Source of the DNA: a virus
Length of the DNA: 25,208 nt
Reading direction: 5' to 3' (one strand)
Virus record (IMG/VR): IMGVR_UViG_3300034374_004737
Coordinates: 1 to 25,208 of that record
Shown here in pieces: positions 13,493-24,119 of the stretch; the first letter of the stretch is position 1, and every line of letters starts with the position of its first letter. Both the position numbers and the translations under genes were made by a program. The notes below the pieces were generated by a model, which was not told the origin of the DNA, ran no database searches, and worked only from the letters and a program-made list of their open reading frames with translations.

Positions 13493-13660
13493 AGCCATGA
13501 GCTCAGCGCGCTCGCGGCTAGCTCGCAACGCGCAATAGCGCTGGTGTAGACGCTCGATAAAGGTCACGCGTTGCGCGCCAACCATCTCTTCATCAAGCAT
13601 CCGCTTAACGTCCGCTTCGCTCATGTCGTTGAGCGTCGCGTTTAATTGTCTCCAGTTCAT
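13463..13660 (-). CDS. small hypothetical protein, coupled to helicase
   Basis: A 65-residue protein. I start it at the ATG ending at 13660 because GGGAG lies five bases upstream and the ATG shares ATGA with the stop of the helicase gene; a GTG four codons earlier is less likely. The sequence (MNWRQLNATLNDMSEADVKR, then ERLHQRYCALRASRERAELM) is helical and charged, with no recognised family. Its end overlaps the phosphoesterase gene from the other strand. It may be a helicase partner protein. Confidence 0.65.
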   Translation of the reverse strand: MNWRQLNATLNDMSEADVKRMLDEEMVGAQRVTFIERLHQRYCALRASRERAELMASIAPTSQAA

Positions 13661-14994
13661 TTTAGCTCCCACATCGCTACGTCTGACAGCGCGCGCTTGT
13701 CATGTAGCGCCGCCCAAATTTTCTCGTCAATCGTCTTGTTTGTTAACAAGATGTACACCCACACGTCATGCCGTTGACCGCTGCGGTGTAATCGACCGAT
13801 GACCTGCTCGTACTCTTCAAGCGACCACGGCAGCGAGACGAACACCATCCGGCTGCCGCCGTGCTGCAAGTTGAGTCCATGGCCTGCGGACTTAGGGTGG
13901 ATCAATAGCAGTTCGATCTCACCTCGGTTCCATGCGTCGATTACGCCAGGCTGGTCAATCGTCGCCGCTTTAGGGTAACGCTGCCGCAACTCGGCCAGTT
14001 CAGCTTGGTAATTGTAAACAATTATTGTATTGGCGTGCTGGTTTTCTTCAAGCAATTCATCCAGCAGCTCAAACTTGTGGTCTGAAAACCACACGGTCTT
14101 TTGCGTCACATCGAACTTGCCGGGTCGTTCCGATGCGGTATGGGTCGTCTCGTACACAAACCCGCTTGCCATCTGTTGTAGCTTAGACGTGACCGCCGCC
14201 GCGTTCGCAGCGATAGCCCTAGCGTCGGGGAACTCGACGATAAAGTCGCGCTTCATCGTCTCGTACGGCTCGCGGTCAACCAGATCGCAGCGCATCTCCA
14301 CCGTGTGCAGCGGCGGCAGCTTGTCGCTGTATTCGCCAGGCTCTAGCACAAAGGTCGCGGGCTTGATCCGCGCCATCACCTGCGCGAGCGCCCCCTGCGC
14401 GGGGGTCCATTCGCCATACTCCCGATTGAGGCAGATAAAATACTGTTGTAAAAACGCACCCTTGCTGCGCCCGAGAAGGCTTTGGTCGATGATTTTGCAT
14501 TGCCCAAACACGTCCTCTAAGCCGTTTGAGGTAAAGCTACCCGTCAGACCCCAACGGATTTTAACGGGCTCTAGCGCCTTTAGAATCGCTTTAAAGCGTA
14601 CGCCTGATGGATTCTTAAGCCGAGTCAGTTCGTCAAAAACAACACCGTCAAAATTGAGCGGCTGTTTTGCCAACCATTGCAGATTGTCATAGTTAGTCAC
14701 CACGACGCGCGCGTCAGACTCCAACGCCTTTGTCCGCCATGCGGGGGAACCAATGGCGACAGCAAGGTCTAAGGCGGGCGCCCACTTCGGCGCCTCGACC
14801 GGCCACACATGCTGGGCCACACGCAGCGGCGCAACGACGAGCCAGCGCGTGACGACGCCATCCTCTAGCGCGTCCTGCATCGCCGCAAGCGTCAGCGCCG
14901 TCTTGCCCGCGCCCACAGGCGCCAGCACCATCGCACGGTCGTGCTCGTAGAGGAAGTCAGCCGCGCTCTCTTGATACGGTCGCAATGAAAGCAT
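13657..14994 (-). CDS. SNF2/DEAD-like superfamily 2 helicase
   Basis: A 445-residue protein from the ATG at 14994, chosen because GAGG lies six bases upstream; an ATG at 15000 abuts that site and is too close. Motifs: LRPYQ (Q-motif-like), Walker A APVGAGKTAL (Lys about 31), DExx-box VVFDELTRLKN, motif III-like WGLTGSFTSNG, a second RecA-like domain with IIVYNY, and motif VI QVIGRLHRSGQ typical of SNF2 enzymes. It is an ATP-driven DNA translocase/helicase, probably for replication or recombination together with the VRR-NUC nuclease whose 3' end overlaps it by about 38 bases. Confidence 0.88.
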   Translation of the reverse strand: MLSLRPYQESAADFLYEHDRAMVLAPVGAGKTALTLAAMQDALEDGVVTRWLVVAPLRVAQHVWPVEAPKWAPALDLAVAIGSPAWRTKALESDARVVVTNYDNLQWLAKQPLNFDGVVFDELTRLKNPSGVRFKAILKALEPVKIRWGLTGSFTSNGLEDVFGQCKIIDQSLLGRSKGAFLQQYFICLNREYGEWTPAQGALAQVMARIKPATFVLEPGEYSDKLPPLHTVEMRCDLVDREPYETMKRDFIVEFPDARAIAANAAAVTSKLQQMASGFVYETTHTASERPGKFDVTQKTVWFSDHKFELLDELLEENQHANTIIVYNYQAELAELRQRYPKAATIDQPGVIDAWNRGEIELLLIHPKSAGHGLNLQHGGSRMVFVSLPWSLEEYEQVIGRLHRSGQRHDVWVYILLTNKTIDEKIWAALHDKRALSDVAMWELK

Positions 14995-15244
14995 CGACAT
15001 CCTCGGTGCTAAAGAGCACGCAGTAGTTTTGATTGGTCTGCTCCATGACCGACGCAAACACGCGTTGCAGCGGCGACAGTCGGCCTCGGTCAGCCTTTAG
15101 CTCTACAAACCACGTCTGCCCGTCCGGCAAACAGACAATACGGTCGGCCACTCCGCGCTGGCTTGGGCTTCTAAACTTAAACGTCACGCCGCCCACTCGC
15201 TCGACCGCCCACGTCAGATATTCTTCAATAGTCTTCTCTCGCAT
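14957..15244 (-). CDS. VRR-NUC domain nuclease
   Basis: A 95-residue stand-alone VRR-NUC protein of the PD-(D/E)xK superfamily. It has RGVADRIV (catalytic Asp), WFVELKADRGRLSPLQ (the E-x-K pair followed by the family's typical RLSPLQ) and a C-terminal helix. Stand-alone VRR-NUC proteins are frequent in phages next to SNF2-type helicases and cut branched DNA. There is no Shine-Dalgarno before the ATG, and the promoter found upstream would start transcription about at the A of the ATG (see the entry at 15251-15279), so the message may be leaderless. Confidence 0.88.
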   Translation of the reverse strand: MREKTIEEYLTWAVERVGGVTFKFRSPSQRGVADRIVCLPDGQTWFVELKADRGRLSPLQRVFASVMEQTNQNYCVLFSTEDVDAFIATVSRERG

Positions 15245-16467: not shown

Positions 16468-17106
16468 ATGTCAAATATCACTGCGTTTAGTTCTGCGGGT
16501 CTTCCCGCTGTTACGTCTCTGTCCACCGCCCTGCGTAACATCGAGGTCGATGTCGGTCCTGCCGGCACCGCAATCCTCAAGATGGATAAGACGGGCCACT
16601 GGGTCTTTGGTGCGGATCAAACCGAGGCTGAAGAAGACAGTAAGTGGGCGATCAATCCGTTCTCGTTTGTCCACGGCTTCATTGCTTGGGGCGACGGCGA
16701 GGTGCTTGGCGAGAAGATGGTGTCGGTGTCACAGCCGCTACCTGAGCTTGAGCCTGCACCCCCGCAGTCAAAGAAGGGTTGGGAGACGCAGGTTGGCTTG
16801 AGCTTGAAGTGCATCAGCGGACAGGATGCAGGGCTGGAGGCCCGCTATAGCACCACGTCCGTGGGCGGCAAGCGTGCCGTTCAGACCTTGGCAGCCGCCA
16901 TCGCTGCGCAGGTCGAGCGCGATCAAGACAAGCCGGTGCCGGTTGTGCTGTTAAAGAAGGAACATTATCAGCACAAGTCGTACGGTCGCATCTACACGCC
17001 GGTCTTTGAGATCGTCGAGTGGGTGTCGATGGAAGGTGACGCGTCGTCAGGTGATGACGAGACGCCACCGCCCGCCGCAGCAGCCCGCCGCCGTCGCGCG
17101 GCCTAA
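16468..17106 (+). CDS. replication-block protein, possible ssDNA-binding protein
   Basis: A 212-residue protein with AAGGAA nine bases before the ATG. A beta-rich central part (GTAILKMDKTGHWVFGADQ, WAINPFSFVHGFIAWGDGEV, WETQVGLSLKCISGQDAG, YTPVFEIVEWVSM) is followed by a disordered tail with DDE, then a proline run and RRRRAA. It lies between DUF2800 and the polymerase, where other phages encode ssDNA-binding (DUF2815-type) proteins. The sequence itself is not one I recognise as that family, and the basic tail is unlike the acidic tail of most SSBs. Function is an inference from place and predicted strand pattern. Confidence 0.5.
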   Translation: MSNITAFSSAGLPAVTSLSTALRNIEVDVGPAGTAILKMDKTGHWVFGADQTEAEEDSKWAINPFSFVHGFIAWGDGEVLGEKMVSVSQPLPELEPAPPQSKKGWETQVGLSLKCISGQDAGLEARYSTTSVGGKRAVQTLAAAIAAQVERDQDKPVPVVLLKKEHYQHKSYGRIYTPVFEIVEWVSMEGDASSGDDETPPPAAAARRRRAA

Positions 17107-17112
17107 AAGGAG
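17107..17112 (+). promoter_or_regulatory. Shine-Dalgarno of polymerase gene, separated by hairpin
   Basis: AAGGAG here is 29 bases before the polymerase ATG at 17142, too far for normal use. The 22-base hairpin at 17113-17134 begins at the very next base; with it folded, seven bases (TCTTTTG) remain between site and start. No other ribosome site is present. Confidence 0.6.
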
Positions 17113-17134
17113 CGGGGGTCGGCAACGGCCCCCG
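17113..17134 (+). terminator. GNRA hairpin before polymerase (terminator-like / translational)
   Basis: CGGGGGTCG (17113-17121) pairs with CGGCCCCCG (17126-17134) around the GCAA tetraloop, with a single G-U wobble; 9 bp. TCTTTT follows at 17135-17140. It resembles a weak intrinsic terminator that would partly stop messages after the upstream gene, and it also places the Shine-Dalgarno near the polymerase start. Both roles could coexist. Confidence 0.65.
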
Positions 17135-17141
17135 TCTTTTG

Positions 17142-19097
17142 ATGGCGATACTTTGGTTAGACTTCGAGACGCGTAGCCGCTGCGACCTGAAGAGCGCAGG
17201 CGTCTACAACTACGCGCGCGACCCGAGCACCGAGGTGCTCTGCATGTCGTACGCGTTCGACGATGAGCCCGTCGAGACGTGGCTTCCAAAGTATCCATTT
17301 CCTGAGCGCGTGGCGAACTGGACAGGTCAGATCCGCGCGCATAACGCCGCGTTCGAGCGCCTAATCTTTTGGCATGTGCTCGACATCCCGTTCGCATTGA
17401 CTCAATTTTTCTGCACAGCGACACAGGCACGCGCTAACTGTCTGCCTGGTAGCCTTGAAGACATAGGCCGCGCTCTGTCGTCTAAGATGAAGAAAGACCA
17501 TCGCGGCGCGCAGTTGATCCGGCAGTTGTCGATCCCCAAGGCTGACGGCACGTTCAACAACGATCCCGAGCTCATGGCCGAGATGATCCGTTACTGCGAG
17601 CAGGATGTCCGCGCGATGCGCGAGATTAGTAAGGCGATGCGTATCCTATCGGATACAGAGCTTGCCGATTACCACGTCAACGAGCGCATCAACGACCGTG
17701 GCGTGCGCGTGGACGTGCCGCTCTGCGAGGCCGCCGTGCGCTACGCCGAGGCCGAGTTGCAAGACATCGAGCAGATCGTGACTGACGTTACGCGCGGCAT
17801 GATTACGAGCGTGCGCAGCCCGCGCATGCGCGAGTGGGTGCTCGCGCGCGTCGGCCCTGAAGCGAAGAAGCTGATGACTGTTTACAAGGACGGTGAGTCT
17901 AAGTTCAGCATCGACAAGACCGTGCGCGCTAATCTATTGGCCATGGACAACCCCGATGAGTTGCCCGCTGATGTGGCCGAGGTCGTGCAGTGTGCGGATG
18001 ATCTCTGGGCGTCGTCGGTCGCTAAGTTTAAGAGGTTAGCTAACCTAGCGGGCCAAGATGCTCGCGTGCGTGGTGCGTTTGTCTTTGCAGGCGGCAGCGC
18101 CACAGGCCGCGCGTCGAGCTACGGCGCGCAGGTGCATAACTTCACACGCAAGTGCCACAAAGAGCCCGAGGCCGTGCGACAGGCGCTTGTGCGCGGGCAT
18201 AGCATCGTCCCGCGTTACGGTATCCGTGTCACGGACGTGCTCAAGTCCATGCTGCGCCCTGCGCTCGTGCCCGCCAAAGGTAACGTCTATGTCGTCGCGG
18301 ACTGGAACGCCATCGAGGCGCGTGCGACCGCGTGGCTTTCGGCTGACCGCACTGCCGAAGACGTGCTCAATGTATTCCGTGTCGGCGGTGACATCTATAA
18401 GCGTGAAGCCGCTGGCATCTACCGCACCGACGTCTCAAAGATTACCGACGAGCAGCGCCAGATCGGCAAGGTGGCGATCCTAAGCCTTGGCTTTGCGGGC
18501 GGTATCGGTGCGTTCGGCAACATGGCCCGCGCGTACGGCGTGACCATGAGCGAGTCGGACGCTCAGCGGATCGTAGACGCGTGGCGCCGTGCGAACGGCT
18601 GGGCCGTGCGCTACTGGCAAAAGCTCGAAGAGGCGTACACCCGAGCGATGCGAAATGTCAACCATGAGTTCCGTGCTGGCCGCGTGGCGTACCTTTTTGA
18701 TGGTCAGCATCTTTGGTACGCACTGCCGTCGGGCCGCGTGTTATGTTACCCGTTCGCTCGGCTCGATGAGGACGGCGTGAGCTATCTTAAAGCTGCGTGG
18801 AAGCCTGCCGCCGATGCGACCGAGTGGCCGCGTGCGCGGCTCTGGAAGGGCTTGGCGACGGAGAACATCACGCAGGCGGTTGCTAACGATCTGCTGCGTG
18901 AGGCACTGCGTGAGCTCGACCGTCGAGGCTTGCAGACGGTGCTGCATGTGCATGATGAGATTGTCTTAGAGTGTCCTAGCGGAGCCGCCGAGGCGGTCGC
19001 TGAGACGCTCGTTGAGGTGATGTGTGCGGCCCCACGTTGGGCCGAGGGCTTTCCGCTGCGCGCCGAGGTAAAGGTGATGCAGCGGTACGGTAAATAG
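17142..19097 (+). CDS. family A DNA polymerase with 3'-5' exonuclease (Leu762 type)
   Basis: A 651-residue DNA polymerase I-like protein. The start is the ATG at 17142; the TTG just before it is unnecessary. The exonuclease domain has Exo I DFETRS (Asp7, Glu9), Exo II HNAAFERL and Exo III RYCEQDVRAM. The polymerase has motif A VVADWNAIEARA (Asp387, Glu392), motif B from Arg439 (RQIGKVAILSLGFAGG, Lys443) and motif C HVHDEIVLE (Asp605). Aligned to E. coli Pol I, the Phe762 position is Leu447 and the Tyr766 position is Phe451. No 5'-nuclease domain. It replicates the phage genome; it has all catalytic acids. Confidence 0.93.
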   Translation: MAILWLDFETRSRCDLKSAGVYNYARDPSTEVLCMSYAFDDEPVETWLPKYPFPERVANWTGQIRAHNAAFERLIFWHVLDIPFALTQFFCTATQARANCLPGSLEDIGRALSSKMKKDHRGAQLIRQLSIPKADGTFNNDPELMAEMIRYCEQDVRAMREISKAMRILSDTELADYHVNERINDRGVRVDVPLCEAAVRYAEAELQDIEQIVTDVTRGMITSVRSPRMREWVLARVGPEAKKLMTVYKDGESKFSIDKTVRANLLAMDNPDELPADVAEVVQCADDLWASSVAKFKRLANLAGQDARVRGAFVFAGGSATGRASSYGAQVHNFTRKCHKEPEAVRQALVRGHSIVPRYGIRVTDVLKSMLRPALVPAKGNVYVVADWNAIEARATAWLSADRTAEDVLNVFRVGGDIYKREAAGIYRTDVSKITDEQRQIGKVAILSLGFAGGIGAFGNMARAYGVTMSESDAQRIVDAWRRANGWAVRYWQKLEEAYTRAMRNVNHEFRAGRVAYLFDGQHLWYALPSGRVLCYPFARLDEDGVSYLKAAWKPAADATEWPRARLWKGLATENITQAVANDLLREALRELDRRGLQTVLHVHDEIVLECPSGAAEAVAETLVEVMCAAPRWAEGFPLRAEVKVMQRYGK

Positions 19098-23429: not shown

Positions 23430-24119
23430 TTATGCCGCCTCGTCTGCTACTTGCTCGGCGGTCTCCGCACTGTAGGCGAGCGCGTCCGCATGCGCCATGC
23501 TGCACGCAACGCGCGCGGTCTCCGCCCGCAGATCGTTACGCATGGGCATCACAAGCGCGAGCGTGTCGCCGGTAGTGTCGGCGATGACGGTAGGAAGCTC
23601 GCCGCGCATATGGATCCGGATAGCGTGCTGCCCCGCGACTTTTTTGGATATGTTGCGCGCAATCGAAAGCGCGTCACAAGCATCGGCAAGATATTGCGTA
23701 TTGAGTACAGCGGGCACTTGCTCGCCAATATCCTCAGGCTTAGGCACTACGCGGCGCCATTCTGGGAACGTACCGTCTAACGCCTTACCCGTTACGGATC
23801 CGGTAGGCGTGTCAATCGCGATATGCGTGCCGTCAATCGTGATCTTAACCTCGACGCCGCCTAAATTTTTACCGCGCGCATACTCGCCCCGAAATTGTTG
23901 CAATGCCGCATCTAGCGTCTCGTTCGGAATGATGACGGACGGATAGGCGGACTTGACGCCGCGTGCATTGGCAACAAATAGCCGGTGGCCGTCCGTTGCG
24001 ACAATCTTGCCCGCGCCGGTATCAAGATAGACGCCTTGCAGATAGTAGCGAATATCCTTTTCGGCGGCATGAGTGCGGGCGGCGCGCAAGTGAGCGAGCG
24101 AAACAGTGAGTGTATACAT
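23430..24119 (-). CDS. two-domain beta sliding clamp-like protein
   Basis: A 229-residue protein with AAAGGAAA upstream of the ATG at 24119. LQGVYLDTGAGKIVATDGHR followed by LFVA matches the DnaN domain II segment (VATDGHRLAV), and the later GDTLALVMPMRND matches the end of DnaN (YVVMPMRL). E. coli DnaN is 366 residues with three domains; this protein would correspond to domains II and III, lacking domain I, and carries 35 extra C-terminal residues. It would be the processivity factor of PolA, loaded or self-loading. No clamp loader gene is seen in the window. Confidence 0.75.
   Translation of the reverse strand: MYTLTVSLAHLRAARTHAAEKDIRYYLQGVYLDTGAGKIVATDGHRLFVANARGVKSAYPSVIIPNETLDAALQQFRGEYARGKNLGGVEVKITIDGTHIAIDTPTGSVTGKALDGTFPEWRRVVPKPEDIGEQVPAVLNTQYLADACDALSIARNISKKVAGQHAIRIHMRGELPTVIADTTGDTLALVMPMRNDLRAETARVACSMAHADALAYSAETAEQVADEAA

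Follow-up and report, generated by a model that had tools for sequence, protein, structure and literature searches.

Split ribosome-binding sites and reinitiation

Split ribosome-binding sites, in which a hairpin is looped out between the Shine-Dalgarno sequence (SD) and the start codon, are documented mainly for two genes of bacteriophage T4. According to PMC3014915 both are proven by mutation and probing: folding reduces the distance from 22 to 5 nt in gene 38 and from 27 to 11 nt in gene 25, which lies at the 26-25 junction (work of Nivinskas, 1999, and Malys and Nivinskas, 2009, cited in PMC3014915). Related measurements concern reinitiation in E. coli, where a gap of 14 nt costs 40-80% and a linear gap of 38 nt nearly abolishes it (PMC10666635). 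Searches of an open-access library gave no account of a split site at a polymerase junction. The junction described here, a candidate for such a site, lies in a stretch of viral DNA of 25,208 nt (positions 1 to 25,208 of IMG/VR record IMGVR_UViG_3300034374_004737), which is called the window throughout.

Anatomy of the junction

The gene order at this locus is a DUF2800 exonuclease gene, a gene of family PHROG 9528 and a family A DNA polymerase gene. The features of the last two and of the gap between them are as follows.

16468-17106, plus strand: upstream gene of 212 aa (PHROG 9528, in the position of the SSB gene); its stop codon TAA (17104-17106) abuts the SD
17107-17112, plus strand: AAGGAG, the only SD of the polymerase gene; a GGAG-type site is found in all direct siblings
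17113-17134, plus strand: 22-nt hairpin with stem 17113-17121/17126-17134 and loop GCAA (17122-17125); the stem persists despite sequence changes among siblings
17135-17141, plus strand: pyrimidine-rich spacer UCUUUUG, which gives the 7-nt folded spacing, can pair with AAGGA and resembles a U-tract
17142-19097, plus strand: family A DNA polymerase gene of 651 aa, starting with ATG at 17142, its N-terminus aligned with those of 80 relatives

From the stop codon to the ATG there are exactly 35 nt, made up of AAGGAG, the hairpin and UCUUUUG. The stem, CGGGGGUCG paired with CGGCCCCCG, has nine pairs, one of them U-G, and AAGGAG lies 29 nt from the ATG when the RNA is unfolded and 7 nt from it when the hairpin is folded. 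The initial annotation had named AAGGAG as the sole ribosome site of the polymerase gene and had described the hairpin as filling the gap; the coordinates are exact on both counts, and no second SD was found in the 45 nt upstream of ATG 17142. Normal SDs are present at several other genes of the same phage. There is an in-frame TTG at 17139, and across the 80 aligned N-termini only the ATG at 17142 is conserved.

The upstream protein has a basic tail, and its AlphaFold model gives weak, non-significant matches to SSB/OB folds; it is no more than a candidate SSB. The plus-strand replication module is flanked by minus-strand genes, an SNF2/DEAD-type helicase gene (13657-15057) and a gene with a DNA polymerase III beta-clamp domain (23430-24119). 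The only hints of the host are Rhodoferax and betaproteobacterial MAG contigs, which point to a betaproteobacterium.

The predicted fold

The 35-nt gap folds with a predicted energy of -23.6 kcal/mol, which was matched by 2 of 5000 dinucleotide shuffles and by none of 5000 mononucleotide shuffles, and only four plus-strand sites in the window fold equally well within 35 nt. Taken as a whole, the 121-nt context is unremarkable (z -0.14), because the GC-rich coding flank folds just as well. The hairpin stem has a predicted probability of about 1. Below it the predicted fold continues, a point that the initial annotation had missed: AAGGA pairs with UCUUUU (p about 0.65-0.8), so that the SD would be partly masked. 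That the SD is mostly paired in the prediction counts against a split site. Opening the AAGGA/UCUUUU pairing costs about 4 kcal/mol, as against about -8.5 kcal/mol for the SD with the 16S tail.

Another very stable hairpin, GCCCCCUACGG...CCGUAGGGGGC, occupies an intergenic gap at 1250-1306 of the window; there a normal SD (GAGGA) follows, 8 nt before the next ATG.

Conservation among close relatives

A total of 185 distinct junctions were collected from IMG/VR, from the 80 best polymerase relatives and from loci found via the upstream protein (the best 80 loci per query); all are metagenomic contigs, cited here by L numbers, and junction counts are raw, without correction for ancestry. A search of GenBank phage DNA gave only weak coding matches to other polymerase genes; the nearest polymerase is 57% identical, with a different upstream gene and no hairpin.

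Every direct sibling junction has the arrangement, and in its compact form the stop-start gap measures 33-37 nt. Wherever the polymerase gene comes next in the close clade, the gap is of 33-35 nt and holds an SD, a GC hairpin and a pyrimidine-rich spacer. The GGAG-type site abuts the hairpin in 17 distinct sibling junctions, and constrained folding reduces the spacing from 28-31 to 6-11 nt, counted from the first SD match, so that a value may exceed the exact one by a base or two. GGAG is constant while the bases around it vary, and loops and inner stems vary as well: examples are GGGGGUCG-GCAA-CGGCCCCC, GGGGGCUG-GCAA-CAGCCCCC, GGGGGCCG-GUAA-CGGCCCCC and GGGGGC-GCCCUCG-GCCCCC, and the sibling loops include GCAA, GUAA, CCUC, CUGC and CUGUAC. 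The flanks of the insert are constant (5-9 nt from stop to stem, 6-11 nt from stem to start), whereas the insert between them varies from 19 to about 92 nt. The stem-loop does not have the constant length of 22 bases that had been expected: siblings have 19-24 nt, more distant relatives about 48-92 nt, and what is constant is the folded distance. Of the covariation anticipated for the stem there is little, which counts against a split site: the stem is kept through sequence changes, but the close clade offers one clear double change (C-G to U-A in L017) and one change between U-G and C-G, and covariation is strong only in the closing stem of a larger element at the homologous position in more distant relatives. 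The outermost pair is lost in L002, L015, L017 and L026. These pairs were counted by position, since MAFFT did not align the compact hairpins in register.

The position of the SD varies. Of 65 junctions whose hairpin is compact, none has an SD on both sides of it: the SD lies either before or after. It precedes the hairpin in 23 of the 50 junctions whose start lies within 11 nt behind the hairpin, as opposed to none of the 15 with a distant start (Fisher p 5.6e-4, a value that ignores shared ancestry). Of these 15, 14 have their own SD behind the hairpin; in most of the remaining adjacent-start junctions the SD either forms part of the stem or fits into the short stretch between hairpin and start. 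An SD that stands in front only where the start is adjacent matches what is predicted of a working, looped-out SD.

A module of the junction

The initial annotation had assigned to the hairpin a control specific to the polymerase, a view that the relatives contradict. In five of them (L016, L018, L020, L026 and L305) a gene for a Dcm-like methylase or an MRVLVACEFSG protein is inserted behind the hairpin at unchanged spacing, and in L163 an HNH-type gene is inserted behind the same SD-hairpin cassette. In each case SD and hairpin still follow the upstream gene, the ATG of the insert replaces that of the polymerase, and the insert overlaps at its end with the polymerase start, which in the first five has neither hairpin nor SD. 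In other relatives the upstream and polymerase genes are joined by an ATGA overlap. The hairpin is therefore not polymerase-specific, and the polymerase does not need it; to judge from these arrangements, the SD-hairpin element is an initiation cassette for whichever gene comes next at the junction.

In these six relatives the position behind the PHROG 9528 gene is also an insertion hotspot: methylase-like, HNH and zinc-ribbon genes lie there, and they end either directly next to the polymerase start or overlapping it.

Larger inserts in distant relatives

Longer inserts retain the same plan. In L022-L024 and L556 a structure of about 48 nt comes after the SD, with GGGAGCC/GGCUCCC as its closing stem, and GAUUCUG-AUG comes next; in L041 the structure after the SD measures about 92 nt, its closing stem is GGGGGCG/CGCCCCC, and 10 nt remain to the ATG. 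On the same count from the first SD match, folding shortens the spacing from 58 to 9 nt in L023 and from 104 to 12 nt in L041.

Many distant relatives (L034, L036-L050, L055-L080) carry a larger RNA without an SD between the PHROG 9528 gene and the next start, as at 2945-3000 of L070; a structure kept at this place with no SD counts against the split-site reading. Its layout is GGGG-NAAAGCGGAUGC...GCAGCGAGUA-CCCC with a variable inner arm, and it contains a conserved, asymmetric loop-E-like motif, NAAAGC...GAGUA. The closing stem was tested by anchored counting rather than with a covariance model, because closing stems of unequal length are out of register. The 18 distinct arm pairs show only standard pairing at the four inner positions, pair 1 being C-G, U-A, G-C or U-G, pair 2 C-G or G-C, and pair 4 A-U or G-C; none of 2000 partner shuffles reached this pairing (shuffle maximum 0.90), and sliding the partner by one base lowered it to 0.72-0.80. 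The closing stem of the larger RNA is a real, covarying RNA helix. Rfam returned nothing credible for the larger RNA or for the element in the window, at gathering or permissive thresholds.

Several of these loci (L036-L040, L046-L049, L055, L060-L062, L068 and L072) have a second, tandem structured element just before the polymerase ATG, which begins at an ATG-like site behind the first element. It has closing stems of the GGCUCC/GGAGCC type with a conserved UUGGUCGG inside, followed by ACCCUCUACC-ATG.

Alternative roles for the hairpin

The hairpin had also been described as terminator-like, and in the window this is correct: with its GC stem and UCUUUU it scores +24.5 on a terminator score, and no other GC-stem terminator match between 13 and 22 kb ranks higher. 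Its strength, however, is not conserved. Scores in siblings span -10 to +29, many of them between -10 and +4, and L163 and L636 lack the U-tract, so a terminating function may be common to all. Strong terminators do occur at the same junction in nine other relatives (L622, L653, L658, L666, L678, L660, L032, L628 and L630), the first six being convincing terminators with the SD behind them. In some lineages, then, the element could plausibly serve in addition for attenuation, acting between an abundant upstream protein and the polymerase, and a terminator may have been the ancestor of the split site. That the hairpin is chiefly an intrinsic terminator or attenuator, which lowers the polymerase relative to the upstream protein and whose A side is the A-rich, SD-like stretch, is nevertheless rather unlikely. 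For such an element alone a flush SD and an AUG 6-9 nt downstream would be superfluous, the polymerase would be left without a ribosome site, and junctions in which an SD of the next gene follows the hairpin lack the SD in front.

In T4, gp32 and gp43 repress translation by binding structured RNA at the SSB and polymerase genes (PMC3014915), and the hairpin could likewise be an operator to which the upstream protein or the polymerase binds. The position of the upstream gene, the basic tail and weak SSB-fold matches of its product and the conserved internal motif of the more distant relatives agree with such a role, which is nonetheless quite improbable given that the sibling loops differ and that the same cassette also precedes methylase-like and HNH genes. 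Least probable of all, and to our minds very far from likely, is a GC-rich intergenic hairpin present by chance, with the polymerase translated by coupling alone. Relatives with overlapping genes do translate the polymerase without hairpin or SD; however, the shuffled sequences seldom fold so well, SD, stem and folded spacing recur in all direct siblings, and a linear gap of 35 nt is poor for coupling.

A probable looped-out ribosome-binding site, with proposed coupling to the upstream gene

We consider it reasonably probable that the junction is a split (accommodated) ribosome-binding site, by which the next gene is translated via a looped-out hairpin and in dependence on the upstream gene. 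The initial annotation had likened it to T4 gene 38, and the likeness to the sites of genes 38 and 25 has held up in that no close relative has lost the SD, the hairpin or the folded spacing. Because the folded distance is kept while the sequence and size of the hairpin and the next gene change, this is probably a working phage version of the T4-type arrangement.

In the proposed mechanism, the 30S subunit would pair with AAGGAG directly behind the upstream stop codon, while the GC hairpin, folded up, would be looped out; the AUG, then at 7 nt from the SD, could be selected normally. The SD would be weakly closed by the pyrimidine spacer, and a ribosome finishing the upstream gene would melt this pairing; since the upstream stop touches the SD, the second gene would be translated mainly when the first is. 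Folding would also bring stop and start closer together, from 35 nt apart to about 13 nt. The position of the SD, its weak pairing with the spacer and this shortening suggest coupling to upstream translation, and the use of the folded form by the ribosome is postulated by analogy with T4. The element would act as a module of the junction that serves whichever gene comes next, perhaps with a partial terminator effect superimposed.

Recurrence at other genes

A pattern scan found the same layout at unrelated genes. The best case is a tail protein of PHROG 394 (L210, L228, L255, L260, L331, L539 and L541), an independent recurrence that speaks for the split-site reading. Here the order is stop, SD, hairpin, 8 or 9 nt and ATG, without a U-tract; relatives found by protein search all keep the stop, SD, stem and 8-9 nt, with differing loops. 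A family of 130-131 aa (L212, L213, L215, L270, L304 and L306) has a GGGAG site, a GC hairpin with changing inner pairs, 8-10 nt and ATG; the label helix-hairpin-helix-like, given to L212, L213, L215, L304 and L306, is our reading of the sequence. A small-protein family, MxxIYLxHPxHGxKVA (L316, L319, L341, L360, L364, L374 and L403), has its ATG 6-9 nt behind a GC hairpin, with an SD on neither side in most members. The MAKSPAWTRKEG family, which the pattern search had also brought up, only looks similar and was set aside: its start is more likely an in-frame ATG that follows GGAGGG.

Phage-wide enrichment of SDs before start-adjacent hairpins was rejected: at unselected phage loci an SD precedes the hairpin in 11 of 50 start-adjacent and 4 of 48 start-distant cases (p 0.09), which is not significant and weighs against the split-site reading; no general rule is therefore claimed. 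A wider scan gave 21 of 142 near and 25 of 726 far, 11 of the 21 near cases being the PHROG 9528/polymerase junction itself. It is a tentative idea, and one that we hold to be doubtful, that inserts of foldable RNA serve phages generally as bridges between genes, with any GC-closed RNA of 19 to about 92 nt, including the loop-E-like RNA, keeping the stop or SD at no more than about 13-17 folded nt from the next start, whether or not an SD is present, and that this was arrived at independently in SSB-position/polymerase, tail tubular and other families. If so, translation of the next gene would depend on RNA folding and on upstream translation.

The replication-gene junction offers a natural and nearly complete series in which the folded spacing is constant while stems, sizes, downstream genes and SD positions vary, and the tolerance of the 30S subunit for looped-out RNA is thus directly testable. 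Starts of this kind are missed or wrongly scored by gene finders for which the SD has to lie at 4-14 nt from the start.

Comparison with known systems

With intrinsic terminators the element in the window shares a GC stem, a short loop and a U-rich tail; in contrast to them, the strength of its U-tract varies, and the flush SD and fixed distance to the start are not terminator features. The translational operators of T4 genes 32 and 43 (PMC3014915) are likewise structured RNA before replication genes, whereas here the structure lies between SD and AUG and has variable loops. As in termination-reinitiation coupling (PMC10666635), the same two genes overlap in some relatives and the upstream stop adjoins the SD; the linear gap of 35 nt, however, is past the range measured in E. 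coli, and it takes folding to reduce it to about 13 nt.

The closest resemblance is to T4 genes 25 and 38 (PMC3014915). There too the SD is too far from the AUG and an intervening stem restores the spacing; the site is intercistronic in gene 25, and it is kept in close relatives and absent in distant ones. Unlike those sites, the present candidate lies at the SSB-position/polymerase junction of unrelated freshwater phages and has a GC-rich stem of 9 bp, the inserts of its relatives reach about 92 nt, and its cassette stays with the upstream gene before varied downstream genes.
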